A stretch of DNA of 64,000 bases, from contig QOQV01000003.1 in the NCBI GenBank assembly GCA_003327435.1, forward strand, positions 1-64,000. Reading direction: 5' to 3'. Source of the DNA: Ignavibacteriota bacterium. Lineage in GTDB: Bacteria > Bacteroidota > Ignavibacteria > UBA10030 > BY39. The notes under the pieces were generated by a model that was given only the letters and a program-made list of their open reading frames with translations, ran no database searches and had not been told where the DNA came from. Below are positions 988 to 61,254 of the stretch, in pieces. The translations under genes and the position numbers were made by a program. The number at the start of each line of letters is the position of its first letter. Position 1 is the stretch's first letter.

Positions 988-2484
988 ATGTTAAGGAAAG
1001 CAAGAGATGAACTGATAAGAAAATTAAACCATATCCAATCACTGCTTCAGGTAATCAAAAAACCACCTGATGATAAAATCTTCAATCTCAAATCTCCAAA
1101 TCTTCAAATCCTCAAATCCCTCATCACACTTCACCTGTTACTTATCACTGTTACAACCTTTTCGTGTCGCGAGCGAGTAACACCACCTGATATACCACCT
1201 TACATTCCGCCGATTGTTCTTGCAGTTGAGGACACATCCTGCACCGATGCATTCATAAGGATAAAGACGACGAAGGCATTTGACGGCGGAGTATTACAAC
1301 TCAGGCGCGAAGGTTCGACAAAGGTTGAGATAACAAACTTAAATACACAGCTCGACACACTGGTAATAGACGAAGGACTTCTGCCAAAGCGAGAGTATAA
1401 ATACAGAGCATACTGGATTGTAAACAGCACAGCTGTTGATTCGAGTATGGAGTTGATTGTAAGGACTATGGACACGACCAGTCACGACTTTAGCTGGGAG
1501 ATAACATATTTGGGAGATGGAGGTAACAGCATGCTTTACGATGTAGCTATAATAAACGACACGCTTGCGTATGCAGTGGGGGAGATACATTTGAAAGACA
1601 GTTTGGGGAATTGGGAACCGACACCGTATGGATTAGCAGTATGGAATGGGAGAGAGTTGAAGTTGAGAAAGCTTTTTGCACAGTATCCAGGTGTGCGGTC
1701 GCTTTCTCTGGTTAGGCCGCGTGGGATCTTTGCATTCTCAGAAATGAACATATGGTTTGCTGATGCAGATGTATTTTGGTGGGATGGTAAATCTCAGTTG
1801 TTGAAAGTTCATCAAGTTGTGAACACAATACTTTCTTCAGGCCAGTACGTAAACAAGCTCTGGGGTTCTTCAACTTCTAATATATATGCTGTTGGATACG
1901 GTGGTGCGATTGCACATTTCGACGGCGTACGCTGGCGGCGGATTGAAAGCGGGACGGATGTGGACTTGACAGATATATGGGGAAGTCCAGACGGAAGCAT
2001 TGTTTGGGCGTGCGGATATTATGATGATAAAGTCGGAACTTATTTATTTAAATATAATGGTATTAAATGGGAATTAGCTTATGATGGCTCATACACAGAA
2101 TTTATTTTAAGAGACGATTCAATTTCTGGATCTATAAGTAGTGTTTTCACATTGAATAAGAGGAAAGTATTTCTTGCAACGAATGCTGGTATTTATGAAA
2201 GCACATCAAACATAACTGGAAAAGCTAAAAGAATTTCTTTTACTTCGAGCTAGTTTCCCGGCTTTCCATATAGACTTAGAGGAATTAGTCACAATGATAT
2301 GTTTGTATCTGGTAACTATTATATGTTAGCACATTATAATGGTGTTTCAATGAAATATTATGATAACTTATCGGGTTATGGAAAACTACTTTCAGTGTAT
2401 CAAAAGGGGAACATAGTAATTGCCGTTGGTTATTTGATGGACCCAATTCATCGCAAAGGTATAATAATAATAGGAAGGAGGTGA
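988..2484 (+). pseudogene. Secreted lipoprotein of the Ignavibacteria 'glucosyltransferase-like' family, interrupted by in-frame TAG
   Basis: The frame runs from ATG 988 to a TAG at 2251-2253 (421 residues). It then continues in the same frame, with no other stop, to TGA at 2482-2484, giving about 498 codons. Residues 1-42 are a charged leader. A hydrophobic stretch then ends in TFSC followed by PPDIPPYIPP, a lipoprotein-like signal and proline linker. A fibronectin-III-like segment follows, then beta-propeller-like repeats containing WGSS, YAVGYGG, IAHFDG and IWGS. The part after the stop has the same style (RGISHNDMFVSG, AHYNG, ending IIIIGRR), as expected for the last propeller blades. TAG is one base from TGG (Trp), so a nonsense mutation, sequencing error or read-through would all fit. 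Proteins of this family are often labelled glucosyltransferase without biochemical support. Confidence 0.8.
1081..1118 (+). repeat. Octamer-like tract (about YTCAAATC) inside a coding region
   Basis: Within the leader of the gene at 988, about five imperfect units ending in CAAATC or CAATC follow one another, three of them exactly eight bases apart (1095-1118). They encode FNLKSPNLQILKS. The tract looks like an intergenic simple repeat captured between the start codon and the lipoprotein signal. An 8-base unit would shift frame if copy number changed. Confidence 0.55.
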
Positions 2485-2619
2485 TAAATTCAAGTAAATA
2501 AAAAGGACCATTGTGTAGTGCACATTTTATTTTGCCCATATTAATTTAATTAGAAATTTTTTAAATCGTCTTATGATAATTGAATCTGGTAAAGTTGTGA
2601 AAATACAACTATCCTATTT

Positions 2620-4317
2620 TTAAAATTGTATCACAACATTTTCAATAGGCCAGCGTGCTCTTAAAGTAATTGTGTCTGGATATACTGTAAAAATTTCAGA
2701 AAATTCAAACGGTTTGATTTTACCAAAATCGTATTTTAAATTTCCATTTTTATCTAAGAACGCCTCTATTACATATTTCCCTTCTGGTAAATCATCAAAA
2801 CTAAACTCACCAACTTCGTTGGTCTTTAGCCACTCGACCTTTTGTTTAACTTTGCTTACATCAAAAATTTCAACCATAACATTTCTGTAATCCAATGCTA
2901 TTTTCTCACTCTTTACCTTTCCGCTTATTGAACTAAACTTACTTTTATCAACAGTTGAAAACTCTAAAACAAAAGTGCTATCCTTAATTGAATTATTATA
3001 AATATCTACTAAGGAATCTAACTCAATCTTTATTGTGTATTTCATTCTGGTTAAAAGTCTTTCTTCAGGTGTGAATTTTACTTTGAGTTTAGTTTCCCAA
3101 AAAAAATTGCATCTTAAAATATTCCCAGCTGAATCTAAAAGATGAAAACCATTTACAAAAGTATTTTGAAGAATTTCTTCATTAAATGAAATTAAAAACT
3201 CTTTATTTAATGGAACATTGTTTTCTTTATTTTTAATATTTTGAAACTCAAAAGATGGCGCTATGGTATCATTTATTCTTGAACCGTAAAAATCAATCTG
3301 ATTTTTTTCGGAAAACATCTCATTTCCAGCAGTATCACAGATTTCATTCACAGTAAGTTTATATATAATACTATCCTGATCATCAGTATGCAAAAGAAAA
3401 GTATTGGGACTAATCAGAAAATAAGATTTGGTTTGTAAAGAATCCTGATTCAAAGAATCAAAAATAAAAAATTTTGCAGATTCCTTAACAGGTTCACTAA
3501 ATATTACCTGGACCTGATTTTTATTTAACGATTTAACATTAACAATGTAAGGTCTTGTTGTATCTTCCTGAGTAAGTTTGAATTTTAAATTGTTGAAATA
3601 AATACTTGTATCTTGAAGCATGATATCAAATTGTGCAGTTCCATATTGATCAACCTGAGCATCGTACAACAAATTATTATAGACATCTCTTATTGCAAAC
3701 AATCTATATAATCCTGGAGCAAGATATTTTAAACTAAATGAACCATCTCTCGAAGTTTGAGAGAGGTAATCAGGTTTTCTTTGAGTTAAATCAAGAGTAT
3801 CAGAGAATTTATTCGATATTTTATATGCAAAAATTTTAATTGCTTCAGGTTTGTCGGCGTAAACTTTCCCCGTTATATAAAATGAGTCAATACTTTCACC
3901 TGTTGAAAATGGAAGAGCAAATGTTTCAGATAGATTATTTCCTCTTCTGTCCTTTGCTCCTGTACCGACTACCAGTATATATGTTGTATTTTCCCTGAGT
4001 TTTTCTTCAAAAGATATTTTGAGTTCCTTACCACTCCAATCAAATTCAAATATTCCCAGATCCGGTGATATAAAAATTGCTTCCTGAACACTTCTTTGCT
4101 CCATATATTTATCAAATTCCAGTAAAACTTTATTGCCTTTAAAAAAAGTTGAATTGGGTTTAGGTTCGGAAAAAATGATTTTAGGTGGTGTAGTATCTAA
4201 TGGTCCTCCGGGCGGAGGATATTGTCCTGCACATCTAATTAATACAAAAATTAAAACAGCAAAAAGTGAAACCAATAAAAAGTTCAGGTAAAACTTTTCA
4301 GTTTGAATTTTTTTCAT
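2620..4317 (-). CDS. Ig-like (Big_5/SbsA type) surface lipoprotein
   Basis: This 565-residue protein has an N-terminal membrane segment ending in LIRC at about residue 29, then GQYPPPGGPLDTTPP. That is the standard start of Bacteroidota Ig-like lipoproteins, with Cys29 the likely lipidated residue. A Big_5 domain follows at about residues 40-140 (PPKIIFSEPKP through LPFSTG). Two or more similar beta-sandwich segments come next (around DTTRPYIVNVKS and DTIAPSFEFQ). The C-terminal SISGKV segment and the part up to FLDKNGNLKYD resemble carboxypeptidase-regulatory-like folds. Its start overlaps the end of mltG by 20 bases, so it is the last gene of the tsaD operon. The role is presumably envelope structure or adhesion; no enzyme motif is visible. 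Confidence 0.82.
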   Translation of the reverse strand: MKKIQTEKFYLNFLLVSLFAVLIFVLIRCAGQYPPPGGPLDTTPPKIIFSEPKPNSTFFKGNKVLLEFDKYMEQRSVQEAIFISPDLGIFEFDWSGKELKISFEEKLRENTTYILVVGTGAKDRRGNNLSETFALPFSTGESIDSFYITGKVYADKPEAIKIFAYKISNKFSDTLDLTQRKPDYLSQTSRDGSFSLKYLAPGLYRLFAIRDVYNNLLYDAQVDQYGTAQFDIMLQDTSIYFNNLKFKLTQEDTTRPYIVNVKSLNKNQVQVIFSEPVKESAKFFIFDSLNQDSLQTKSYFLISPNTFLLHTDDQDSIIYKLTVNEICDTAGNEMFSEKNQIDFYGSRINDTIAPSFEFQNIKNKENNVPLNKEFLISFNEEILQNTFVNGFHLLDSAGNILRCNFFWETKLKVKFTPEERLLTRMKYTIKIELDSLVDIYNNSIKDSTFVLEFSTVDKSKFSSISGKVKSEKIALDYRNVMVEIFDVSKVKQKVEWLKTNEVGEFSFDDLPEGKYVIEAFLDKNGNLKYDFGKIKPFEFSEIFTVYPDTITLRARWPIENVVIQF

Positions 4318-45881: not shown

Positions 45882-48800
45882 CTACTTCAAAAACAGCAAT
45901 TTCTTTATTGAAATATATATTTTACTTTCGCCTGAAGCGGATATTTTATAAAAATAAACACCACTTGATATTCCATAATCAGAAGCATTAAATTCCAGAC
46001 TATACTTTCCTGCTTCCTTTTTTTCGTCCACAATTGTTGCAACGACTCTTCCGAGTAAATCATAAACTTTTAGTGTAACATTACTTTTTATAGGCAGTTG
46101 ATAACTTATTGTTGTTGAAGGATTGAACGGATTAGGATAGTTCTGAAATAGTGTAAATTCTTTCGGTAATTCACCATTCGATTTGATACCGGTAATGATC
46201 GTATAAGTATCGGATAATGATTTAGATTCTTCAATATTACCTACGTTATCACGGGCTATGCTGTAGAAAGCATATTTATTATTCAATATTCCTGAAAAGA
46301 CCGCTGATGTATCAGTAACATCAGTCAACCATGCTGAATAGGGACTATCATTGACCGAGACATAAATTGTGTAGTTTTTAATACCTGAGCCACAAGAGTC
46401 ACTTCCTGTCCATGCAACCTCGAATGTTGTGCTGTTTGTTTGAGGCAGAGGGTAAACTCGGCTTAGAGGTTTATCTGCGTCTATGGTATTGAAAATATCA
46501 GGAGTATTTATTGTTTCATTTACATCAAAAACTATTGATGCTTGAGCGTGTATTCTTTCTCCTGAACTTAAAGTTGGTTTCGGTTTTATTGTGAAATTTA
46601 TAAATCCCTCACCATGGTGTAAAGAATCGTTCACTAAAAGAAATCCAAGCAAGGGATCAGTTGGAATTTGCCCTGTGTTCGGATCGATGGATTTAAGAAT
46701 CCAGAAAGCTTCGTTCTTTGCGAGATCGATACCCGCATTAAAATCTACATAAACACCAAGTGAATCTCTGACATCAATACGTTTCGAATAGAATGCTTTA
46801 TTGGAAGGAACATCAAAGAAGAAACTACCAAATCCAAAGTTTCCTAAACGGAATGTGCGTATATCAAATGAACTATCTAATTGCAATTTTACTATAACCG
46901 TCTTAGCAGGCGCGTCTGCTTTTTCTGGATCATTTTCGAAGCGAATTGTATATGGCAATGTTTCAGTATTGGCTATCCATTTAAGATCTCCGTAACCGGA
47001 GGGACCAATGATATCATTCGGGTCAACAGCTTGATAGATTGCCGGACATAATGAATAACAAACTAGGCAATTTATCAAAGACACAACACCCACACAACTA
47101 AATAATCCAGCGTCCATTCCTGCCATCGGAAAACCACAACTAACAGTCAATCCAAACACGCATGAGGGGGCAGTGAGTGGTCCACCAAGTAGACAGTCAA
47201 TACCTGCCGCAGCACAGCCTGTTAGCGTACACACTAAGGTGCAAACTTTTGGACCCGATTGTTGAGTACTTGCCGTCTTAGCAATTTGCATTGGAATGAT
47301 AGATTTCTTTGGAATATTTATAAAATCTTCCGGTTCTATTAAATTGTTATTAATCATAAATCCTTTCACCGAATCGCTGAATGTTTGATAATCTTGTGCG
47401 AGATTAACAAGACCTGAATCCATTATAGATGAATTATCAAGTATCAATTGTCTTGCAATATCGGTTTGCATGTTAATATTTTCGATGTATGCTTTTTTAT
47501 CCATTCCGTATGCAATTATTTTTATTGGAGCCCTATGATGCTCAAACATTATCTGAAGCAGTGAAAGATTTATTTGAACCACTTCACCGACAATTATATC
47601 TCTTGCAGTAAGTGGAATTATTCGCCAATCATCGCTATCGAAATAAGGTAAAGTCTTACTTTTTAGTGTTTCTGGTACAAATGACTTAAAACTTTTGAAT
47701 CTGTCTGAAGAAACGTCAACCTTTTGAGGAGCCGATAAAGCTATCACCACGCTCAGGTAAGGTAAATCAATATTCCATGTATGCGCAAATTGTATAGTGT
47801 ACATTGACGATAAACGACCTGGTAATGCGTCCGGAATTGTATGAGTAAAATATATTTCTCCTCGATTTAATGGTTCAACAATAAATCCGCTTGCAAGGTA
47901 TACTGTAGAATTATCTGGATTTTTTGCCACAATATCATAAGTCCCTAAGGGGATATCTTCTAAATCCCATCTCAATTTCACTTCGGTCGTATTTATGAAT
48001 CTCACTATTTCACTTTCATAGAGTGAATCTTTATTATCTTTCAAGTATAATTTTATTCCATCACGAAAACCAGCACCATTTAACACGCAAGTTACCTTAC
48101 CACCTAAGCCACCATGGTTTGGAGTTATACCAGTGATTGAAAAAGGCAAAGCTGTGGCAAGTAATGTGACATTTTCATTGTTTGCACCAACAGGGAAACT
48201 TCTAGCAATAATCAGTAAATAATACGTACCAGCTCTGGTCGAAGGTACAACAAGTTCTTGATCCGACGTAAATGGTATGGTAGCTGAGTAATCAAAATCA
48301 TTGAAAGTTGGTGCTTTATCGTATGAAATATACACCTCATTCGAGACACTACTAACATTACTTGTTAATGATAACTTCAAATCAAGATGGTCACCTACAT
48401 CCACACGATAATAGCGTAATTGGTTTAGCATAAGGGTTGTGTTCATTGGTGTATTCAAGTGTATTTCTGGAACATTAACATTCATGGTTGCATTGGAAGC
48501 AAATGAATTGTTCTGATCATTACTTTCTCTGATGTTATTCCGGATATCCGTCCTGACAATAGCATGATAATTACCTATTGAAACACCTGGTATTTCAGAG
48601 GTAATTTCTCCTAGAGAATCTGCTTTGAAAATTTTTATGAGATCGGTTTTTATTGAAAATCTTGCTGATGTACCTGGTGCCAGGTCGATATACCGGTAGG
48701 AAATACCGAAAATTGGATCTTCAACATTCCAAATGGTATCAGAAGAAATGTAGACAGCATCATACATCCAACCGGTAGCATTGTACAATCCGGTATTCCT

Positions 48801-51800
48801 TAATGTCCATGTAATTGTAATATCAGTACCGCATTCAACAGTATCAGGAATTTCGATATTTGTGACAATTAAGTCAGAGGGAGGCGGCATCGTTATCGTT
48901 ATTGGTACTGCTTTCCAATTATTATATTCAGTTTGATGTTCGTATATCTCGCTAGCAATGTCAGTACAGAAAATCAGATAAAAATTACCCGATAGATATA
49001 TAGGAACAGTAACTGTGAGCGAATCTGTATAACTTTGACCTGCGTGCAATGTGCCGGTCTGAGATATAGTACCTAATCTCAAATCATGAGGGCTATAGTT
49101 TGTATCAGCAGATAAGTAAATACCGTCAGACCAAGTGTTAACTAAATTACCTGCCAGTCCAGAATTAGTCACAGTCCAGGTTAAATTAATCGGTTGACCT
49201 GCCTGTGCCTGTGATGGTGATGTGACATCTGAGACAATAAAATCTGGCGAAGGTGTTAATCTAATATTAATTTTCTCAGGGGAATATCCTGTGTTATTGT
49301 TTTCGTTAACTTCTTTAACAGATAAATGTGCGTCTGCTATTATTAGTAAATAATAATTGCCTTGTATGCCGTTTGGAATTGTTACCGTTAGATCACGGGA
49401 ATAGGTTTCATTTGGTCCTAATTCTCCAGAATGACTGAAAGAACCTATCTTTATATCAGATCCATCGAAAATTGTATCAATGGAAATATATAATTCATCT
49501 ATCCATATTGATGATAATGTTTTTGCACTTCCAATATTCTGAATCGTCCATTTTGTCCTAATAGGTTGACCGGATGACCCGGTAGTATCAACAGAAACAT
49601 TTTTTACTACTAAATCTACTGGTGGATATGGATTAATTGTAATTTCAGTGCTTCGAAATATATTATTACCTTCATCAGTATTTTCATAAATTGAATTATT
49701 AGCGTCAACAAACAGATAAATGTAATATGAACCATAGATATCGGTTCCAATTGTTACCAAACTGGTTTCTATTTGGGTTTGGTTTGGTGCAAGAGGTAAG
49801 GAATGTAATTTACTTCTAAGTAACTTTGCACGTGGAGCAAACCAACTAGCAGTGTCGGATAAATATATATTATCTATCCATGGGATTGTTGCCAAACCAT
49901 CTCCTGAATTTTTTACTACCCAACCGATTGTCACTTTCTGACCGGCAGTAATTTCCATCGGCACATTTAGGGATATAGTTTCCAAATCGGGCCAGGGTGT
50001 AAGATTTACTGCTAAAGTTGAAGTACTTTTAAGGATATTGTTATCTTCATATATGTATTCGAAAACTTGATTGTTCCAATCAGTCATAACATAAATATAA
50101 TATGGACCAGAATAGCCGTTAGGAATTGTTACTGTAGCAAGTTTAGTATAAGTTGATTCTGGCTCTAATTTTCCTGTAAAAGTTATGGTTCCTAAGGAAA
50201 CACATGAATCTAGAATGAATGAAGATACACGGGAAATATAAATGCGGTCACTCCATCCGCTCTCAAACGGGGAACCTGGACCTTGGTTTTGGACCGACCA
50301 CTGAATAGTAATAGGTTGACCAGAATTTCCAGTAGGTGGTATTTGCATATCTGTAACGACAAGATCAGGTGGTGGAGATAAAGTTATGATAAGGGAATCG
50401 GTTCGAGAAATATTATTACTCTCCCAAACATTTTCATAAATCTCATTATGATCGTCTGTTCGGATAAACAGGTAATATTTTCCCCAAATCGTATTTGGTA
50501 CCATTATCCTTTCATACGTCGAATATCCACTATCAGGCAGCAAGATCCCGATATGGCGTTTTTCGTACACTTTATGAGCAGAAGAATTATTAAAAATAGA
50601 ATCTGGAGAAATATAAAATCCATCCCACCATTGTCCAGTTACGGTTGAACCAGTACCTAAATTTTTAACAGACCACATAACATCGATACTGTCGCCGGAA
50701 AAAGCATTTTCAGGAGCAACAATGGACACTACTCGAAGATCGGGCGGGGGAGTAAGATTAACCTGCATATTATTATAAAGGCGGTTATTCTCTTCGTTAA
50801 ATTCGGAGAGTCTGTTGTCTTGGTCGGTGATTACAAAAATATAATATGTTCCGGTTATTCCTCGTGGCAAAGTAAATGTTGCTTTATTAGCGTAACTCTC
50901 ACCAGCATTAAGATAAGTTGCATTCTGAGAACTACCGAGATGTATCGCAGTAGAGAAGTTGATTACTGAATCTGGAAATAGCCAAATTGCATCAGACCAA
51001 AAAGGTGTATTTGTCCCTGCAGCCCCAACATTGGTAACAATCCATAGGACTTCAAAGCTCTGCCCAGAATATACCGAGGAGGGCAATTGAATTTCCGAGA
51101 CTATCAGATCTGGAGAAAATTTTGTTGTAAATTTCCATACATCAGACCATCCACTTACCGCCAATGGACTTATAGCTTTGACGCGCCAATAGTACATTGT
51201 TCCGACCTCCCATGAAGGCATTATACTTGTTGTATCAATAATTGTTGAATCATTGATAATTATTATTGTGAAAAGAGAATCCTTTGCCACCTGTAGATGG
51301 TATTTTGCTGCGAAAAATGCCGGATGCCAGGTAAGTCGCTCGGTATGTGATATATTCGTTGATTGATTAGGTGGTGTTGCCAGTTCGGGAGGCATTATTC
51401 CATTACCTATCAAAGCGATATTCAAATCCGGATTATTCAAGGCATTACTGAAAATTGTAATAGTACTGCTCTGCACTCCCGGTCCACTTGGTGTAAAAGC
51501 AACCCGAATAATGTGGCCGCCCCGTGGAGGGATTGAAAACGAAGTAGGAGCAAGAACAGAATATCGAGAACTGGCACTTGTGATATCAGAGATTGAAAGT
51601 GTTCCTGTTCCTGTGTTAATAATATTCAAGGAGAGTGTATCAGAACTCCCTTCATAGACAATACCAAAATTTAATGCATTGGAATCAGCGCTTATGGCGG
51701 GAAATCCGGTCAAGGTTAAAGTCACGGGAATTCCCACAGATGGATGTACAGTATCGTTGCATGTAATATTCAGCGTTGAGTTATAAACTCGTTCTATCAA

Positions 51801-54800
51801 ATCATCCGTCTTGATTTTAACTGAAACATTTTGGGAATCACCAGGAATGATTATGCCAGTTGAAGGAACAAGAGATGTATATTTTTTTGCCACATATTTC
51901 AATGCGTTTGCAATGATTAATGCTCCGTCCGTTGTATCGACCCAACCATACTGATAGGCAGTTGAGGAGGGAGGATAAAATCCCAGATCGATACGGCTGA
52001 CACCGTTTATTGTTTTCTCAGCTATCAAAGGAGTACCATCGCTCCAGTCGGCGATCCGCGCGCCACCTTCGACTATTCCACCAGTATAACGCAGGCTGTT
52101 GCCGCCGTTGAAAGAATGAACATTTCGCATTATCGGATGGTCCGATTGATATATTTTGCCGAGAAATGCTTGCGTGCCTTTGCCGATGCTCGGTGCGATT
52201 ACCCAGTAGTTTTCATCGCTGAACCTTCCTTTCACAATACCACCATATTGTGCTGGTTGCCCCGTATAGTAAGACATTACCACTCCGCCGCCACTGTCTA
52301 TATAGTCCGCTAGATTATTCCCGAGAGTCTCCGGATTTAGGAAAGATGCACCCCAGCTCCAGACCATTACAGCATCGAATGATTGTAATTGCGCGACTGT
52401 CGGCGTACCATAATATTCCATCAGGAGAGTAATGCTGTTAAAAATACCGGTACTTAGAAGTTTATTTCGAACATCCATTGCATACTTCCACGCATCATAA
52501 TATATTAACAGAGCATTAATTGCTCCATCTTTATGATTCTCCGAAAACATTACACTCACGGCTGTCTCAGGTGTGAAATTGAGCAAAGTATTGGCATCAC
52601 CTTTCGGCAATTCACCCGATGCCATCTTTTCTTCAACAGCCCGGCGCATTTCCTCAACTACTCTTATGATTTTAGCATTTGCGGTATCTCTAACTATGCC
52701 CTCAACTCTCCATTCTAAATTACTTGTACCCAGGTTTTTAATATTCATTAATCCTATTGCACTATCGCCCGCGTGGAGAGAAAAAGCAAAAGAGTTTGGA
52801 TTGATACTGATTTCAGGATTACCTGTAACGGAAATACCAACCGCGAAATGTTTATCATTATTAAGCGGATCGTTGCTTTCGATTACGAACCTGTGATCAT
52901 ACTCTCCTGCAGCTAACCCCCGTGTATCAACTATTAGAGTTACAGAATCTGATGACCCTGCTGCAGTTGTTCCATAGGACGGATTAGTTATGACAATTTT
53001 TCTTCCAACATATGAAAGTGCGTTCGCAATGATATTGGCGCCATCAGTTTTAAAATCCCAATAACAGTTATTGACCGTGGAGGAAGGTGGATATAGATTA
53101 AGATCAACCCTATTAACTCCTTTAATTTTTCTTTCTGCAATGAGCGGAGAGCCGTCTGTCCAGTCTGCAATTCTGATTGACCCAGGCAAGAGGGTTGGAC
53201 TTATATATTTTTTAGGGCATTCGGCGTAGAGGGAATTTACCCCTTTCATTAACGGATGACCAGGTTCATAAACAGTTCCCAAATTAGCATCACCGGTGAT
53301 TATGGGATTACTGCTTGATGTCATTACCCAATAACTATTGTATTCAAACCTTCCGGAAATGCTTGAAGAAACTCCAGATTCAGATGCAATAACAACTCCT
53401 CCACCTTCATCTATATATGAAGCGAGATTATCTCCAAGAGTATATTTATTAGCAAAATACTGCCCCCCGCTCCAAACTAAAACAGCATCAAAATCACGGA
53501 GCTGGGCAAGTGTAGGTGTCGTGATATTCGCCTGTATTATTGTGATACTGCGGAAGCGGTTTGTAAGCAATAATCTGTTCCTAACATCCTGAATAGCATT
53601 TAAGTCATCAGCGGCTATAAGGGCAACATCCAAACTCTCCGATATCGAGGTATGATTGCTTCGTGGAAAGTTCCTGACATGCCAGCGAAGGTCACTCAAA
53701 CCGGTATTGCTGATAATAAAACTCCCTTTTGCCGTATCCCCCCTGAGAAGTGAAAATCCGAGTGTATCGGGATAAACACTAATAACCGGAAGATTGACCG
53801 TAACAGCTGAGAGAGGAATGATAAGAAGAGGATGGCTGGTGTCGTTGCTCGTTATCGTCAAATCTTCATTCCACGAAGTTACTATACTTCGCTTGCATTG
53901 TATGCGGACATCACGCCAGAGATTGAAATCAATCACGAAAGTAGTGCTGTCCAGAATAACAAATTCCGGATTACTTGTTGTAACTCCCAATATATTTAAT
54001 GCCGCGTTCCCGTTGTTATAAATCCTAAATACCAGAGTATCGGGGTATCCTACCAGCCCTTGACCAAAATTCATCGTATCTTTCGAAACACTGATATGTG
54101 GGTAGCCCTGCACTTTGAGACTTATCGGAACATCTTTTATTGGCGTTGTAGGATCATTGCTTAAGAAACGTAAATTTACTTTATAATTCCCGCTGGCGAC
54201 ATTTTTCCCGTTGTAACCGACTGACAATTCTTCTGAAGAGTCTGGGTGGACAGTAGCAGAATCAGGGGAAACTGCGAATATCTTCTGCGCCTTAAAATTC
54301 TTAACCAACGACATCTCCTCTACGCTCATACCACGGAGTGCCTCCCCCTCGAGATTCATGAGTTCTTCAGCAACGGCAATCCCTTCCTGCTGGCTCCATC
54401 TCTGTGCACCAAAGTGCATAATAATGAACGTCTCACCAGCAGGGATATTAACATACCACCTGTATGTGATATAATTACTATTCGGTGGCCCACCATATAT
54501 GTAATTGGGTTGCAAAATACCACCTGCCCCTACGAAAACATCGACAAATGCTGGCACTTCAGGTCTGGTTGAATCCCGGACGACAATCCAATTATCATCC
54601 ATCCCAAAATTCTGATCACCCGACGATGTTATAGCATAATAATCAGTTGAATGATGGCCAAAATGGGTAGTCATCTCTACGGTTTTTCTACGATCTTCCG
54701 ATGTTTTGTTCTTAAATATTTCCAGGTAACGGATGAATGAAGCATTTTTCGGGATAAATATTTTTCTGTAAATGTCCTCATATATGTTCGAGTAGGGACC

Positions 54801-56642
54801 TATTACAACTTCACGACCACTTTCTTCCGTTGATGCCGAATCATAATAATTCCCAAAGTAGGATAGATCGAAGCCCCCATTAAAGACATTGTTTGTTCCA
54901 TATTTTATTCCACCGTCTTTATCAAGATCCCACGTAAAATCTAATGCATCGTAAAGTGTAATGGGAAGCATTATTCTTACTCCTAACGAATCGCTTTCAG
55001 GGGAAATAAATTTTGTGTTAAATTTTAAATCGCTACCTCCATTATTAGATAATGTCAATAACCTGCTTGTTGAATCACCAATATTTATCACTACTTCGGG
55101 TATTAATGAAGGGGTTAGATTTATAACAGGTGGATAAACTGCACTTCCTTTCATTACTACATTTACACTCGAATTATCAGGATCGTCACTCGAAATCGTG
55201 AGAATACCTGTTATCATTTCCGCACTCATGCGAGTATATATTATCCCGATTGACCTGGTATGGTTTGGTGCAATTGAAAATTGTATAGTGTCAAGAATAA
55301 CAAACTCACTATTATTGCTTTGAATATTTGTGATATTAAGTAAGTCGTTACCATCATTTGAAATTGTAAAATAAGCAGTATCGGGATATCCGACATATCC
55401 CTGGGTGAAAATAAGTGTATCAACTGAAAGAACTATATTAGGTGTACCTGCTACATCTAAACTTATTAAAACCTGTGATTGTGGAGTAACAGGGTCATTA
55501 CTCTCGATTGTGACTGTATTCTGGTAATTGCCGCCATATAAATCTTTTGAATTTACATTTACGTTGACAGTCTGATTGCCACCTGCTGCGATGTTGCCAC
55601 TGGTTGGATCTAATTTTACAAATTTTACTCCAACGTAACATAGCGCATTTGCCATGATTATAGCACCATCGGTGTTTGCATCCCAATAATATTGGTACAC
55701 TGATGATGAGGGAGGGTAAAAGCCCAGATCGATTCGGTTCACTCCGTATATCTTCCGCTCTGCAATGAGAGGAAATCCGTCAGCCCAATCGGCAATACTT
55801 ACGCCACCAGGCTCGACCCAGCTGGAATAGCAGATGCTATAATAACCACCATCAAACGTTGACACCCTTCTCATGACGGGATGATCCGGATTGTGGATGG
55901 TACCAAGAAGTGTTGAACTATACCTCATATGAGTCCACCCGGGTGTGATGACCCAGTAATTTTGAGAATTAAATCTTCCCCTGATCATCATGTGAACACT
56001 CTGTGATGTACCAGCATAGACGGCGGTAACCACACCACCACCTGCATCGATGTAGTCAGCGAGATTATCCCCGATCATTTGTGTATCAGCAAAGGAATTC
56101 GCGCTCCAGACCAATATTGCATCAAATGTTTTGAGCTGATTGACTGTTGGTATAATACTTCGAGCATCGATTATTGTGACGCTATTGAACATACCTGTAG
56201 CAATAAGTTTCTGCTGTACATCTGAGGCATATGTCGGATCGTCCGCAGCGAGTAGGGCAACATTTCTCAAAGAAATATCCATTGACTTTTTGAAGACAAC
56301 ATTTATGGCTGTTTCTTTCGACCAGGAATAAGAAATATTCTCTTCTTTACTTTGACTTATAGGATGAGATTGGGTAGGTGCTTCAGCTTGCTTTCTTAGC
56401 TCCTGTACAACCGATTCGATCTTTGCACGCACGGTGGCGGTATCAAAATTACCTACTGACCAGAGTAAATCACTCGTGCCTATGTTGCTGATAGTCAATT
56501 GTGCATTAGCAGTATCGCTCGATGAGAGTGAAAAGTTGAGTGAAGTTGGATTGATATTTATTTGCGGTTGTGGAAAAGTGGTTGTAAACATGAAGATAAT
56601 AAAAGTTATCTCCAACAATAAGTTACAAATAAATTTTTTCAT
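45882..56642 (-). CDS. Giant T9SS-secreted protein: three ThuA/GATase-like modules, seven CARDB repeats
   Basis: A single 3586-residue frame with a signal peptide (ending TTTFPQ). In order: choice-of-anchor/Ig-like domains alternating with three related Rossmann-like modules at about 127-341, 1006-1214 and 1377-1586. Each module has a VALxAADD-type start, FDAxLVWS, GDNLAxYIDxGGGVV, ADWxDGxPLIAE and NRxDLxxYPPSS, resembling ThuA/class I glutamine-amidotransferase folds. Next come a fibronectin-III segment, seven CARDB repeats of about 125 residues (about 1843-2720, each opening P-D-L-x-V), an IPT/TIG-like domain (PFSITGITPNHGG) and a cysteine-rich hydrophobic stretch (about 3128-3204). A DUF7619-like domain (GYGDLKWIANTE) and the NYPNPFNPSTTISYQLP sorting domain end it. 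A TGAGGATC ribosome binding site precedes the ATG. Function is unknown; adhesion or glycan binding is inferred. Confidence 0.9.
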   Translation of the reverse strand: MKKFICNLLLEITFIIFMFTTTFPQPQININPTSLNFSLSSSDTANAQLTISNIGTSDLLWSVGNFDTATVRAKIESVVQELRKQAEAPTQSHPISQSKEENISYSWSKETAINVVFKKSMDISLRNVALLAADDPTYASDVQQKLIATGMFNSVTIIDARSIIPTVNQLKTFDAILVWSANSFADTQMIGDNLADYIDAGGGVVTAVYAGTSQSVHMMIRGRFNSQNYWVITPGWTHMRYSSTLLGTIHNPDHPVMRRVSTFDGGYYSICYSSWVEPGGVSIADWADGFPLIAERKIYGVNRIDLGFYPPSSSVYQYYWDANTDGAIIMANALCYVGVKFVKLDPTSGNIAAGGNQTVNVNVNSKDLYGGNYQNTVTIESNDPVTPQSQVLISLDVAGTPNIVLSVDTLIFTQGYVGYPDTAYFTISNDGNDLLNITNIQSNNSEFVILDTIQFSIAPNHTRSIGIIYTRMSAEMITGILTISSDDPDNSSVNVVMKGSAVYPPVINLTPSLIPEVVINIGDSTSRLLTLSNNGGSDLKFNTKFISPESDSLGVRIMLPITLYDALDFTWDLDKDGGIKYGTNNVFNGGFDLSYFGNYYDSASTEESGREVVIGPYSNIYEDIYRKIFIPKNASFIRYLEIFKNKTSEDRRKTVEMTTHFGHHSTDYYAITSSGDQNFGMDDNWIVVRDSTRPEVPAFVDVFVGAGGILQPNYIYGGPPNSNYITYRWYVNIPAGETFIIMHFGAQRWSQQEGIAVAEELMNLEGEALRGMSVEEMSLVKNFKAQKIFAVSPDSATVHPDSSEELSVGYNGKNVASGNYKVNLRFLSNDPTTPIKDVPISLKVQGYPHISVSKDTMNFGQGLVGYPDTLVFRIYNNGNAALNILGVTTSNPEFVILDSTTFVIDFNLWRDVRIQCKRSIVTSWNEDLTITSNDTSHPLLIIPLSAVTVNLPVISVYPDTLGFSLLRGDTAKGSFIISNTGLSDLRWHVRNFPRSNHTSISESLDVALIAADDLNAIQDVRNRLLLTNRFRSITIIQANITTPTLAQLRDFDAVLVWSGGQYFANKYTLGDNLASYIDEGGGVVIASESGVSSSISGRFEYNSYWVMTSSSNPIITGDANLGTVYEPGHPLMKGVNSLYAECPKKYISPTLLPGSIRIADWTDGSPLIAERKIKGVNRVDLNLYPPSSTVNNCYWDFKTDGANIIANALSYVGRKIVITNPSYGTTAAGSSDSVTLIVDTRGLAAGEYDHRFVIESNDPLNNDKHFAVGISVTGNPEISINPNSFAFSLHAGDSAIGLMNIKNLGTSNLEWRVEGIVRDTANAKIIRVVEEMRRAVEEKMASGELPKGDANTLLNFTPETAVSVMFSENHKDGAINALLIYYDAWKYAMDVRNKLLSTGIFNSITLLMEYYGTPTVAQLQSFDAVMVWSWGASFLNPETLGNNLADYIDSGGGVVMSYYTGQPAQYGGIVKGRFSDENYWVIAPSIGKGTQAFLGKIYQSDHPIMRNVHSFNGGNSLRYTGGIVEGGARIADWSDGTPLIAEKTINGVSRIDLGFYPPSSTAYQYGWVDTTDGALIIANALKYVAKKYTSLVPSTGIIIPGDSQNVSVKIKTDDLIERVYNSTLNITCNDTVHPSVGIPVTLTLTGFPAISADSNALNFGIVYEGSSDTLSLNIINTGTGTLSISDITSASSRYSVLAPTSFSIPPRGGHIIRVAFTPSGPGVQSSTITIFSNALNNPDLNIALIGNGIMPPELATPPNQSTNISHTERLTWHPAFFAAKYHLQVAKDSLFTIIIINDSTIIDTTSIMPSWEVGTMYYWRVKAISPLAVSGWSDVWKFTTKFSPDLIVSEIQLPSSVYSGQSFEVLWIVTNVGAAGTNTPFWSDAIWLFPDSVINFSTAIHLGSSQNATYLNAGESYANKATFTLPRGITGTYYIFVITDQDNRLSEFNEENNRLYNNMQVNLTPPPDLRVVSIVAPENAFSGDSIDVMWSVKNLGTGSTVTGQWWDGFYISPDSIFNNSSAHKVYEKRHIGILLPDSGYSTYERIMVPNTIWGKYYLFIRTDDHNEIYENVWESNNISRTDSLIITLSPPPDLVVTDMQIPPTGNSGQPITIQWSVQNQGPGSPFESGWSDRIYISRVSSFILDSCVSLGTITFTGKLEPESTYTKLATVTIPNGYSGPYYIYVMTDWNNQVFEYIYEDNNILKSTSTLAVNLTPWPDLETISLNVPMEITAGQKVTIGWVVKNSGDGLATIPWIDNIYLSDTASWFAPRAKLLRSKLHSLPLAPNQTQIETSLVTIGTDIYGSYYIYLFVDANNSIYENTDEGNNIFRSTEITINPYPPVDLVVKNVSVDTTGSSGQPIRTKWTIQNIGSAKTLSSIWIDELYISIDTIFDGSDIKIGSFSHSGELGPNETYSRDLTVTIPNGIQGNYYLLIIADAHLSVKEVNENNNTGYSPEKINIRLTPSPDFIVSDVTSPSQAQAGQPINLTWTVTNSGLAGNLVNTWSDGIYLSADTNYSPHDLRLGTISQTGTLHAGQSYTDSLTVTVPIYLSGNFYLIFCTDIASEIYEHQTEYNNWKAVPITITMPPPSDLIVTNIEIPDTVECGTDITITWTLRNTGLYNATGWMYDAVYISSDTIWNVEDPIFGISYRYIDLAPGTSARFSIKTDLIKIFKADSLGEITSEIPGVSIGNYHAIVRTDIRNNIRESNDQNNSFASNATMNVNVPEIHLNTPMNTTLMLNQLRYYRVDVGDHLDLKLSLTSNVSSVSNEVYISYDKAPTFNDFDYSATIPFTSDQELVVPSTRAGTYYLLIIARSFPVGANNENVTLLATALPFSITGITPNHGGLGGKVTCVLNGAGFRDGIKLYLKDNKDSLYESEIVRFINTTEVKLRWDLEDIPLGTYDIVAKNPDNSTVYLASGFIVEPLNRGEIYFTHTIPDALPGRLSSMYTIQFAHTWNIDLPYLSVVIALSAPQKVDVSSDRFKSFKSFVPETLKSKTLPYFDSDDWRIIPLTARDIIVGEVVQINLSLLQIMFEHHRAPIKIIAYGMDKKAYIENINMQTDIARQLILDNSSIMDSGLVNLAQDYQTFSDSVKGFMINNNLIEPEDFINIPKKSIIPMQIAKTASTQQSGPKVCTLVCTLTGCAAAGIDCLLGGPLTAPSCVFGLTVSCGFPMAGMDAGLFSCVGVVSLINCLVCYSLCPAIYQAVDPNDIIGPSGYGDLKWIANTETLPYTIRFENDPEKADAPAKTVIVKLQLDSSFDIRTFRLGNFGFGSFFFDVPSNKAFYSKRIDVRDSLGVYVDFNAGIDLAKNEAFWILKSIDPNTGQIPTDPLLGFLLVNDSLHHGEGFINFTIKPKPTLSSGERIHAQASIVFDVNETINTPDIFNTIDADKPLSRVYPLPQTNSTTFEVAWTGSDSCGSGIKNYTIYVSVNDSPYSAWLTDVTDTSAVFSGILNNKYAFYSIARDNVGNIEESKSLSDTYTIITGIKSNGELPKEFTLFQNYPNPFNPSTTISYQLPIKSNVTLKVYDLLGRVVATIVDEKKEAGKYSLEFNASDYGISSGVYFYKISASGESKIYISIKKLLFLK

Positions 56643-56649
56643 GGGATCC

Positions 56650-56916
56650 TCAATGAATTATGTTATTAATAATCTGTCTAATTGATTTTATATAATAATG
56701 TCCGAGCCCAGAATTTTGTTGTGTTGAGGTAAGACCATCATCCGTAGATCTCCAGATGTCCCAGCCATAACTTCCGGCAAAAATGTCTCCATTGCTATTT
56801 GAAGCAAAACAGAGTGGTGTTACACCAAATGGACCAGTAAGCTGCTGCCAATTAATTGTCTGTGAAAAAGACATTGAAACAACACAAATTATTAAAACAA
56901 ATGGAAAATATTTCAC
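56650..56916 (-). pseudogene. Truncated N-terminal remnant of a secreted beta-propeller protein
   Basis: An 88-residue frame with GTG start, an intact signal peptide (MKYFPFVLIICVVSMSFSQ) and one blade typical of Ignavibacteria sialidase-like or Reg_prop-like cargo (NWQQLTGPFG, NSNGDIFAGSYG, IWRSTDDGL). After about residue 68 the blade pattern collapses into unrelated sequence and a stop. Full relatives have many blades and a sorting domain. The GTG overlaps the stop of the receiver gene by four bases, and its own stop is seven bases before the giant gene's ATG. It may still be translated as part of the operon. Confidence 0.65.
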
Positions 56917-57284
56917 GATTCTCTCGTTGAATTATTGTTATTTAAACATTTTGGAATTAATTCTACATTTTCTTTTAAAAAGAAATTATAAGCACCCCAC
57001 TTTGATGCGACTTCACGGTACTCGGTGTCGTTATATTGAGTAAGTATTATTATTTTTGCTTCTGGATTTTTTCCGGTTATTAATCGAGTTGCTTCTAATC
57101 CATCCATAAGAGGAAGTTTAATATCCATCAAGACCCAATCTGGTTTGAATTCGTTGTACATTGATACAGCAGATTCTCCATCTTCACATTCGTATATCGT
57201 TTCTATATTATGGATAGAAGCTTGAAGTATTTTTTTAATAAATACTCGAAATTTAGTGTTATCGTCTACAATAAGAATGGTCAT
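56913..57284 (-). CDS. Stand-alone receiver-domain response regulator
   Basis: A 123-residue CheY-like protein with no output domain. The acidic pocket Asp7-Asp8, phosphoacceptor Asp54 in VLMDIKLPLMDGLEA, the switch Thr in IIILTQYND and the Lys in FFLKENVELIP are all present, so it should be phosphorylatable. The last residues NNNNSTRES replace any output domain. It lies 144 bases downstream of the LuxR-type regulator and overlaps the next start by four bases. It may act by protein contact, as a phosphate sink, or as a target of the kinase at 58069. Confidence 0.88.
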   Translation of the reverse strand: MTILIVDDNTKFRVFIKKILQASIHNIETIYECEDGESAVSMYNEFKPDWVLMDIKLPLMDGLEATRLITGKNPEAKIIILTQYNDTEYREVASKWGAYNFFLKENVELIPKCLNNNNSTRES

Positions 57285-57428: not shown

Positions 57429-58076
57429 TTATAACATGTGTTTATGCTCTATCGCAAACTGTAGGAGTGTATTATATCCCTCAATACCCAACTTCTCGCA
57501 GATGTGTGCTCTATGATTCTGGACTGTCCGATGACTAATGTGCAACTCCTCACCTATCTCTTTACTCGTTTTATTTTCAGAAATAAGTTTTAATATTTTC
57601 AATTCCATTGGAGTAAGTAATTTTAAAGAAGGTTTTTTGTTTAATAATTCAGAGGTAGCATGTGTGCGTTTAGCAAGATTATCCGAAAATTCAGAACTGA
57701 AATAGTATTTCCCAAGTGATACTTCTTGAAGACATTTTTTAAAATTAATTCCCGCCGATTCTTTTAATATATAGCCCTTAACATCTAATTCAATTGCTTC
57801 ATCGAAGTATTCCTCTTCTTTATACATTGTCATTACGATATAATCTTTTTTAAATGTTTTTTCATTTAAATTCCTGATAAGTTCAAATCCGTTCATTGAT
57901 GGTAATGAAATATCAACAACAATAATGTCTGGTTTGAGTTGTTCGCAAAGTTTCAGTGCTTCAACACCGTCTCCGGATTCACCAACTAATTCAAATCCAT
58001 CCATATCTTCTATTATCTTTATTAAACCCTGTCTTACGATTGGGTGATCATCAACGATAAATATTTTTTTAGCCAT
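57429..58076 (-). CDS. NarL/FixJ-family response regulator
   Basis: The 215-residue protein has a receiver domain (Asp9-Asp10, phosphoacceptor Asp55 in IIVVDISLPSMNGFE, Lys in KGYILKESAG). Its LuxR-type helix-turn-helix at about 150-212 has LTPMELKILKLISENKTSKEIGEEL and HISHRTVQNHRAHICEKLGI. It is therefore a DNA-binding transcription regulator. Its start overlaps the end of the kinase gene by eight bases, so the two are translated together and are almost certainly partners. Likely targets include the downstream secreted-protein genes, but this is inference. Confidence 0.94.
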   Translation of the reverse strand: MAKKIFIVDDHPIVRQGLIKIIEDMDGFELVGESGDGVEALKLCEQLKPDIIVVDISLPSMNGFELIRNLNEKTFKKDYIVMTMYKEEEYFDEAIELDVKGYILKESAGINFKKCLQEVSLGKYYFSSEFSDNLAKRTHATSELLNKKPSLKLLTPMELKILKLISENKTSKEIGEELHISHRTVQNHRAHICEKLGIEGYNTLLQFAIEHKHML

Positions 58077-61000
58077 TATCTTTTTTTTCTTTTACGATTG
58101 GAATTTTAATTAAGATATTTGTTCCTTTATTTATAGATGAATCGATTTTCATTTCTCCTTGTAGCAATCTGACCCTCTCAAAAATGTTAGAGATTCCGAA
58201 TCCTTCATTCGCTTTATCCTTTGTAAAGATATCATCTGTATTAAATCCTTTACCATTATCGGCTATCTCAATCCTCAGAGTATCTTCAATTTGCTTCACA
58301 TCAATAATACATTCAGTTGCATTTGAGTGCTTTATAACATTGTTCAAAGCTTCCTGAATAATTCTGAATATGTGTATTTCTGCTATTGGAGAAAAGAGTT
58401 TATCAATCTCATCGACATCATAAACAAAATGGATTGATGAAACTTGCATAAACTTTTTCACACACGATTGAATGGCTTTTTTTAAACCGAGTCGGTCAAG
58501 CGTGTGAGGATGGAGGTCATACGATATTTCTCGCACCTCATCCATCGATTCCTGTGCAAGTTGCGAAATTTCATGTAATTCATCTGAGTTAACATTTTGC
58601 TCGGCTGTGTTTGCCTCGTATTGATCAAGTGCATTTTTTATAATTAATAAATTTTGACCGATACTATCATGAAGTTCGCCCGCAATTCGCTTTCTTTCAT
58701 GCTCCTGAAACTCTACAAATCGCATTGAGATCTGCTGTTGTGCTAACTTTTCTTTGTGCAGTTTATTTATACGCAATCGATAAAATGAATAACCCAGAGC
58801 AATAATAAAAAGAGCAGATAAAGACCTCGCCCACCATGTTTCCCAATATGGTGGGGTGATAATTATGCTCAAAGCTCTACCTTCGTTATTCCAGACACCA
58901 TCATTATTGCTTCCTTTAACACGAAAAACATAATCACCACCATCTAAATTCGTGTAGGCAGCATAACGTCGTGTACCAGCATTTATCCAATCCTTATCAT
59001 ATCCTTCAAGCATATACATATACTGGTTTTTTTCAGGTACTGTGTAATCGAGTGCAGAAAATTCAAACGAGAAAAAATTTTGCTTATAAGAAAGCTTAAC
59101 TTCAGTAATTGTTTCCAATGAGCCGTTAAGTTGTACCTGTTTATCAAAAATTTTAAAATTGGTCAGGACTATCGTCGGGATGTTATTATTTTTTTTAATT
59201 TCTTCTGGCCGGAAAGAATTTAATCCATTTATACCGCCGAAGAAGAAAACTCCATTTCTATTTTTAAAGTATGCGCCTTGATTAAACTCATTACTCTGGA
59301 GCCCATCATAAAAATCAAAATTTCTAAATTCAAAAGATTTAGGATTAAAGCAGGACAAACCTTTATTTGTGCTGAGCCAGAAATTTCCATTTGCATCTTC
59401 TAAAATTCCATAAACAACCTCATTGGGTAAGCCATCTTTTTGTGTAAAGTGCGTAAATGACTCTGTTTCTCGATTAAAAAGATTCAAGCCGCCACCGTGT
59501 GTACCAAGCCACAAATTACCCTTTGAATCTTCATAAATTACATAAATAGTATTGCTACTGATCGAATTTGGATTCGACGGTTCGTATTGATAAATCTTGT
59601 TTTTATTAGTTGACGGATCAAATTGATTCAAACCTGCGCCCCAAGTTCCTATCCATAAGTAACCATATTTATCTTTCAGTATCGACCAGATATAATTTCC
59701 ACTTAATTCGTTTGGTTTAATCCCTGTTCTTTGATAACGGACGAACAACTTATTTTTCAAATCAAATTTATTCAATCCTCCGCCAGCAGTTCCAATCCAT
59801 AAATTTTCTTTATCATCCTCAAAAATTGTCATAATATTATTAGAGCTTATACTATTGGAGTTTTTATCATCATGTTGATAATGTATGAAAATATTTTTCA
59901 CTGGATCATACATATTTAATCCACCCGATTCTGTGCCAATCCATAAATTACCCAACTTATCCTCTAACAAAGCTATTATAGAATTATTACTCAAACTGTT
60001 TCTCTTTGTTGGGTTGTATGTGTAATAAAAAAATTTCCCTTTCTCTTTATCAAAACGATTTAAGCCACCTCCACGTGTGCCGATCCACAAATACCCCGAG
60101 CGGTCTTCGCATATTGCACGCACTGTAGGGTTGTTTAATCCCTTATCACTGTTAGGTTCAAAGCGAATATGACGGAATTTGTTTCGATTTGCATTAAAAT
60201 AATTTATACCATTACTGCCCGTTCCAATCCAGATTCCTCCAAATCTATCAGCATATACTGAAAATATAGTTTCATCACTAAGTCCGTTAATATTGTAGAT
60301 GTCAAAACCTATTTTTGATACTTTGCCATTAGAAGGATCAAATAAAATTAATCCATCACCACGAGTGGCAATCCACAAAATTCCATTTTGATCTTCTGCA
60401 ATCTGACCAACTTCGTCAGTGCTAAATTGATACCGTATAAATTCATTTTTCTCTCGATCATAACGATTCAATCCTTCTGCAAATGTACTTACCCAGATAT
60501 TTCCCTTTCTGTCTTCATATACATTAACAATCCTATTCCCACTTATACTTTTATAATTATTTGGTTCGTTTTGATAAAATGTGAATTTATTTAATTCAAT
60601 GTTGTAAGAATATAAACCTATCCAAGTTCCTATCCAGAGTAAACCATCACGAGCAAGCATCATACAACGTATGTTGGGGGTATTCAATGTAAAGTGAGTA
60701 AAGGTATTGGATTTTCTATTGTAGCAATTCAAGCCACCACCCCAGGTGCCTACCCAAAGATTTCCCGATTTATCCTCAATAGTACTAACAACATTATTGT
60801 TGCTTAATCTATTTGTATCCGATGGGTTATGCCGGTATCGTACAAACTTGTTTTGTTGTCTATCGAATTTGTTTAGACCTCCATTATAAGTTCCAATCCA
60901 TAAGTCACCACGACTATCTTCAAAAATAGACCATATCCAATTATCGGAAATAGATGCCGTATCTGTCTTATCATTTCTGTAAACTACGAAATCATAGCCA

Positions 61001-61218
61001 TCGTATCTATTCAAGCCATCTTGAGTTCCAAACCACATATAACCATAACGATCCTGATAGATGGTGTTAATCGTAGATTGAGATAATCCCTGTGGTAAGG
61101 AAATACTTCTGAACTGATAAGATTGCTCATAAGTAAGACCATTCGAGAAAGTCATCAAGGTTAACAGGATTATATTAATTTTTCTGAGATATCCCATATA
61201 AAATGAAATATAATTCAT
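58069..61218 (-). CDS. Reg_prop periplasmic-sensor histidine kinase (HisKA_3)
   Basis: From ATG 61218 the protein has 1049 residues (a TTG at 61251 or an ATG at 61197 are alternatives). After a signal-like helix come 14 Reg_prop repeats with cores such as LWIGTRGGGLNRFD and LWIGTWGAGLNQFD, enough for two seven-bladed propellers. A Y_Y_Y domain (about 690-760), one membrane helix and a short coiled coil follow. HisKA_3 has ERKRIAGELHDSIGQNLL with phosphorylated His850, and HATPase_c has EALNNVIKHS, DNGKGF and GFGISNIFERV. Unlike hybrid Bacteroides relatives it lacks a fused receiver and regulator, which are separate genes downstream. The ligand is unknown, often a glycan in related systems. 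Confidence 0.93.
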   Translation of the reverse strand: MNYISFYMGYLRKINIILLTLMTFSNGLTYEQSYQFRSISLPQGLSQSTINTIYQDRYGYMWFGTQDGLNRYDGYDFVVYRNDKTDTASISDNWIWSIFEDSRGDLWIGTYNGGLNKFDRQQNKFVRYRHNPSDTNRLSNNNVVSTIEDKSGNLWVGTWGGGLNCYNRKSNTFTHFTLNTPNIRCMMLARDGLLWIGTWIGLYSYNIELNKFTFYQNEPNNYKSISGNRIVNVYEDRKGNIWVSTFAEGLNRYDREKNEFIRYQFSTDEVGQIAEDQNGILWIATRGDGLILFDPSNGKVSKIGFDIYNINGLSDETIFSVYADRFGGIWIGTGSNGINYFNANRNKFRHIRFEPNSDKGLNNPTVRAICEDRSGYLWIGTRGGGLNRFDKEKGKFFYYTYNPTKRNSLSNNSIIALLEDKLGNLWIGTESGGLNMYDPVKNIFIHYQHDDKNSNSISSNNIMTIFEDDKENLWIGTAGGGLNKFDLKNKLFVRYQRTGIKPNELSGNYIWSILKDKYGYLWIGTWGAGLNQFDPSTNKNKIYQYEPSNPNSISSNTIYVIYEDSKGNLWLGTHGGGLNLFNRETESFTHFTQKDGLPNEVVYGILEDANGNFWLSTNKGLSCFNPKSFEFRNFDFYDGLQSNEFNQGAYFKNRNGVFFFGGINGLNSFRPEEIKKNNNIPTIVLTNFKIFDKQVQLNGSLETITEVKLSYKQNFFSFEFSALDYTVPEKNQYMYMLEGYDKDWINAGTRRYAAYTNLDGGDYVFRVKGSNNDGVWNNEGRALSIIITPPYWETWWARSLSALFIIALGYSFYRLRINKLHKEKLAQQQISMRFVEFQEHERKRIAGELHDSIGQNLLIIKNALDQYEANTAEQNVNSDELHEISQLAQESMDEVREISYDLHPHTLDRLGLKKAIQSCVKKFMQVSSIHFVYDVDEIDKLFSPIAEIHIFRIIQEALNNVIKHSNATECIIDVKQIEDTLRIEIADNGKGFNTDDIFTKDKANEGFGISNIFERVRLLQGEMKIDSSINKGTNILIKIPIVKEKKDNG

Positions 61219-61254
61219 CCTAAATCTAAACACGATTGTTGATAAAAACAAATA

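Follow-up and report, generated by a model that had tools for sequence, protein, structure and literature searches.

What is unusual in the giant protein encoded in the window (the 64,000 nucleotides of Ignavibacteriota DNA analysed here) is that guest domains are nested within HYDIN-type Ig domains, at a fixed site of apparent exchange; the preliminary description of this DNA had missed this feature. The gene lies on the minus strand at 45882-56642 and encodes 3586 residues in a frame with an ATG start and no internal stops. Three ThuA-like modules each part the two halves of one HYDIN/ASH-type Ig-like domain and, as read from their flanks, do so at a single fixed site. In a fourth split Ig domain, the insert is unrelated to the ThuA-like modules. 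The modules had been described as interleaved with Ig-like domains. Such domains are indeed present, but the joined halves, an AlphaFold model and a host-domain HMM place the modules inside them, not between them. Our search of the open-licence literature turned up no account of Ig domains with a ThuA-like domain inside them, which is weak evidence of absence.

Pfam searches with the whole 3586-residue protein return seven CARDB stretches (PF07705, 2e-59), six HYDIN-type Ig stretches (PF22544) and ThuA (PF06283, 6.3e-10, summed score 40.1 bits), together with DUF7619 and Por_Secre_tail. The earlier account of a giant T9SS cargo is borne out by the unbroken frame, the signal peptide and the sorting tail, and the seven Pfam stretches support its CARDB array as a stalk. 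That the frame might be several misassembled genes is rejected because collinear relatives carry aa 1757-3586 as one frame. For the N-terminal half, the search for the same architecture elsewhere, which had been suggested beforehand, found the module-in-Ig order as one frame in further genomes.

From the N-terminus (all coordinates are on the minus strand), a signal peptide-like segment recognized by eye (aa 1-25; 56568-56642) is followed by host 1, whose first half (aa 27-63; 56454-56564) matches positions 1-39 of the host HMM and whose second half (aa 341-397; 55452-55622) matches positions 39-95, with module 1 (aa 118-345; 55608-56291) as the guest. After an uninterrupted Ig-like domain (aa 398-503; 55134-55451), assigned by reading the sequence and from the six HYDIN-Ig stretches, the halves of host 2 (aa 505-543, 55014-55130; aa 788-844, 54111-54281) enclose the different guest (aa 547-784; 54291-55004). 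An uninterrupted HYDIN-type Ig domain (aa 848-944; 53811-54101), which matches host HMM positions 1-91 with no gap, separates it from host 3 (aa 952-989, 53676-53789; aa 1216-1272, 52827-52997), the host of module 2 (aa 1000-1220; 52983-53645). Host 4 (aa 1276-1313, 52704-52817; aa 1588-1644, 51711-51881) carries module 3 (aa 1358-1598; 51849-52571), and a further uninterrupted HYDIN-type Ig domain, the best PF22544 stretch of the protein, lies at aa 1648-1746 (51405-51701). The uninterrupted domains of the same type serve as internal controls. All four hosts are delimited by joined halves and the host HMM, and host 3 by the AlphaFold model as well. The modules are placed by repeat alignment and the host HMM, to which structure prediction and fold comparison are added for modules 1 and 2.

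When the halves of host 1 are joined in silico, they match PF22544 over positions 3-93 of 100 (E 7.4e-9, 36.2 bits), whereas separately they reach 16.5 and 21.8 bits, both below the cut-off of 25.5. Joined host 3 (28.9 bits) and joined host 2 (29.5 bits) also pass this cut-off, while joined host 4 is weaker (19.1 bits). Thus, once the guest is left out, the host reads in sequence as a HYDIN/VesB-like Ig domain (PF22544) for hosts 1, 2 and 3. It belongs with the HYDIN/VesB/CFA65 Ig, ASH and choice-of-anchor D domains (PF22544, PF15780, NF012200), from which it differs in that a guest, some 150-305 residues long, breaks it at one loop.

For host 3 together with module 2, an AlphaFold model (pLDDT 88.7, pTM 0.78) predicts the same nesting. 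The HYDIN-type chain 7n6g_4C aligns to the model within residues 2-326 (102 residues, 1.5 Å, Z 14.2), and CEP192 (6fvi) aligns over residues 1-327 (Z 13.3). Since these solved domains align across both ends, the two halves are predicted to build one domain around the module. The host HMM finds the order host(1-39)/ThuA/host(39-95) in 8 proteins, with 14 modules in all, and a break at the same place, about position 39, nine times around non-ThuA guests; the HMM was built partly from split hosts, so that 9 of these 23 have the break by construction and 14 are independent. Elsewhere in the same genome, no strong-scoring split host was found. Another Ig-like family takes the same kind of guest: in locus L012, a module lies inside a HYR domain, whose joined halves score 59.4 bits and separate halves 17.6 and 41.7. 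A further HYR domain of that protein shows, by eye, a C-type-lectin-like sequence at the same site.

The three modules, each of about 220 residues, align from end to end, with copies 2 and 3 sharing 50-51% identity with copy 1, and are therefore real repeats. A genome search found no further copies. In the guest tree, one clade holds all three (98/96), and they probably arose by copying within this gene. AlphaFold2, run with an alignment of 29 relatives, gives a model of the module (pLDDT 93.7, pTM 0.92), for which the closest solved folds come from class-I-GATase-like and ThuA-like proteins, namely 2gk3 (Z 21.2), 3rht (Z 20.1) and 1t0b (Z 19.1; 201 residues, 2.9 Å). Further kin are 4pxy (Z 16.3), 4e5v (Z 16.1), IFT52 (Z 15.1), a GH42 domain (Z 14.8) and OST48 (Z 13.2), and beta-1,2-glucosyltransferase and Agd3 are also among them. 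On this predicted structure, the modules have the ThuA/class-I glutamine-amidotransferase fold, in agreement with the three ThuA/GATase-like modules first noticed. In sequence searches, module 1 alone scores 23.4 bits against the single-domain Pfam ThuA cut-off of 33.4, the genome-wide ThuA search gives module scores of 22.9 and 17.0 bits with only the whole-protein sum exceeding the cut-off, and 14 of the 29 family members have a weak Pfam ThuA match. NCBIfam holds no fitting model, the module profile has no significant match among the sequences of solved structures, and no canonical ThuA was found elsewhere in the genome. Compared with the ThuA family (PF06283; 1t0b, 4e5v, 4pxy) and the GATase1-like 3rht, whose fold matches almost the entire module (Z 16-20), the modules are 10-14% identical, fall singly below the family cut-off, and are secreted, Ig-nested and present three to a protein.

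Do the modules act as enzymes? The preliminary description had suggested glycan binding or processing; processing through an amidotransferase-type catalytic site finds no support. No Cys is conserved among the 29 family members, and the column expected for the nucleophile elbow, after strand 4, holds Phe in 17 of 29 and Tyr in 5 of 29, its position being set by strand order rather than by superposition. Judged from these alignments, the Cys nucleophile of class-I glutamine amidotransferases is not present. The modules could still be active ThuA-type enzymes on a stalk, sugar-modifying for example, with an active site other than Cys-His-Glu: their fold kin include ThuA-like proteins and domains of carbohydrate enzymes (GH42, beta-1,2-glucosyltransferase, Agd3), and all three copies retain polar positions such as G-R, Y, H-P, D-G, W and TDG. 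However, the R, PPS and TDG positions do not persist in a distant clade of the family, single modules fall short of the ThuA cut-off, and GH42 and IFT52 use this domain non-catalytically. Taken with the missing nucleophile, this makes an enzymatic role quite improbable in our judgement, and ligand binding, not glutamine hydrolysis, is the likeliest role of the three guests.

The ThuA/GATase fold serves many purposes, protein-protein contact included: the GH42 domain is for trimerisation and the N-domain of IFT52 for partner docking. The presence of both among the fold kin could be taken to mean that the modules are spacers or units for oligomerisation or docking, without a small ligand, and the occurrence of tandem triplets without Ig hosts in Phycisphaerae fits such a structural role. 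We nevertheless think it unlikely. The conserved positions appear, from topology and strand order, to lie mostly in post-strand loops, where the fold has its active-site crevice, and there are more of them than a spacer would need; moreover, the socket mates are of a binding type (LamG, and the C-type-lectin-like guest in the HYR domain).

For a ligand-binding role, it is tempting to propose a sugar or glycan as the leading guess. Sugar binding has been proposed for GIFT domains (PMC7226087), and carbohydrate binding has been suggested for the ThuA-like domain of PelA (PMC12022489). The GIFT domain (GldG, IFT52, OST48/Wbp1) belongs to the same fold class, a likeness seen by fold comparison alone, and the modules stand outside any ABC, IFT or OST context. 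Glycan binding by the modules is possible, by analogy, because of this kinship (ThuA, GIFT, GH42 domain) and because of the other occupants of the same socket.

These other occupants are diverse. In other bacteria, the same host site holds GEVED, LamG, nidogen-like or propeller-like guests, and loci L021 and L050 share a nidogen-like guest, so named by eye, at 41% identity. In L005, a single protein contains seven split hosts, whose guests are GEVED and LamG domains, both named by Pfam, and ThuA-like modules. On the host tree, the seven L005 hosts form one group (90/88) irrespective of the guest they carry, but the two ThuA guests of L005 belong to separate clades: one goes with the modules of the 3586-residue protein (92/89), the other with L048 (100/100). 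Guest type is unclustered on the host tree (7 changes versus 7.4 in shuffles). The conflict between the host tree and the guest tree suggests an exchange of guests; the case is moderate because the host tree has 96 columns and one strongly supported branch. The guest of host 2 is a single copy in the genome that matches nothing in Pfam and no PDB sequence significantly; it is possibly an undescribed beta domain.

Across bacteria, then, the same socket would have been refilled with unrelated guests. It may be that the HYDIN/ASH-type Ig domain is a general guest socket at one loop, a swap site used across several phyla for binding heads (ThuA-like, LamG, GEVED, nidogen-like, propeller-like and others without a name), and that ThuA-like guests represent a new class of head that recognises sugars. 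We offer this wider proposal tentatively and hold it to be somewhat short of probable. If real, a fixed socket would account for the arrival of very different heads on one and the same stalk; it would also make unannotated giant surface proteins easier to parse and offer protein engineering a natural two-point insertion site. Because bacterial surface proteins are commonly treated as beads on a string, automatic annotation overlooks split domains; this socket is possibly where bacteria exchange parts that probably touch the outside world.

The modules belong to a family of secreted domains that is undescribed and thinly spread over Bacteroidota, Planctomycetota and other phyla; it represents an undescribed secreted branch of the ThuA fold. 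A scan of GTDB contigs found 18 module loci (Planctomycetota, Bacteroidota, WOR-3, Hydrogenedentota, Sumerlaeota and others), and relatives were found neither in viral contigs nor in plasmids. In Phycisphaerae, the module is often near the N-terminus or in the host-free triplets mentioned above; at L006 (1871-6854), two adjacent Phycisphaerales genes each encode three tandem ThuA-like modules with a dockerin-like C-terminus. A secreted protein with a ThuA-like module and Asp-rich repeats also occurs in a record labelled as a Klebsiella pneumoniae MAG (L011); it does not look enterobacterial, and the record is probably mislabelled or mis-binned. Closer to the source, the module is present in 7 of 296 sampled genomes of the phylum and in 2 of 60 near relatives (own genome counted in both), a genome of the same order (G032) carries a nested module on another chassis with InlB-type repeats, and a genome of the same genus has none.

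This patchy distribution bears on the plainest account, namely that the protein is an ordinary large T9SS surface protein whose nesting arose neutrally as domains were shuffled and has no particular function. The style of the sorting tail and the low GC content suggest a member of Bacteroidota akin to Ignavibacteria. T9SS cargo is common, with 93 matches to the tail in a genome of 2.6 Mb, and the module, absent from the same-genus genome and present in only 1 of 59 sampled relatives, is missing from nearly all of them and is therefore dispensable. On the other hand, the same break point is reused in several phyla with unrelated guests, and the module codons are constrained in relatives (dN/dS about 0.06 in L027/L028, with dS near saturation, and 0.35-0.54, mild constraint, in the L006 paralogues), so that the domain is not free to decay there. 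We accordingly give the neutral account little credence.

The C-terminal half is of a more familiar kind. It comprises an FN3-like domain recognized from its sequence (aa 1751-1842; 51117-51392), the seven CARDB repeats (aa 1843-2726; 48465-51116), a putative PPC-like and IPT/TIG-like region conserved in relatives (aa 2727-3131; 47250-48464; PPC is named by Pfam in relative L044), a Cys-rich, hydrophobic, Gly-rich segment (aa 3132-3206; 47025-47249), the DUF7619 region (aa 3210-3390; 46473-47015; PF24595, 5.9e-16) and the T9SS type A sorting tail (aa 3495-3586; 45885-46160; PF18962, 8.8e-10; TIGR04183, 2.3e-9). With the signal peptide, the tail gives the protein the features of a T9SS type A cargo, and we infer export by this route. 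Relatives in the same family and order, which like other large T9SS surface proteins with CARDB repeats resemble this half, keep aa 1757-3586 or 1844-3586 at 41-44% identity; their N-termini consist of extra CARDB repeats or 690 unrelated residues, and the ThuA/Ig half is absent there. This marks the ThuA/Ig half as a distinct part, confined to certain lineages. The segment at 47025-47249 resembles a membrane hairpin, upstream of a DPNDIIGP motif, which is odd for a secreted surface protein; its Cys residues are kept in relative L043, and L044 has a hydrophobic segment instead.

We propose that the protein is secreted and sorted by the T9SS to the surface, where the half from CARDB to tail would be a conserved chassis, providing the stalk and the export/anchor signal, and the N-terminal half, with its split and intact HYDIN/ASH-type Ig domains, would form a display array. 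Four Ig domains would each carry one guest at one fixed loop; because it is inserted there, a guest would project sideways from the stalk, anchored by its two ends. A surface stalk bearing an exchangeable-socket array of three non-hydrolytic, ligand-binding heads, perhaps glycan-binding, is a reading to which we give an even chance.

The neighbouring genes, a subtilase-type T9SS protein and two-component genes, indicate no substrate, and promoter and terminator scans gave no usable signal. Directly upstream, 56650-56916 and 56913-57281 encode, respectively, a short secreted ORF of 88 residues that resembles a truncated propeller protein and a response regulator consisting of a receiver only. 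Beyond these, 57429-61251 encodes a Reg_prop/Y_Y_Y histidine kinase and a LuxR-type response regulator, adjoining T9SS genes.
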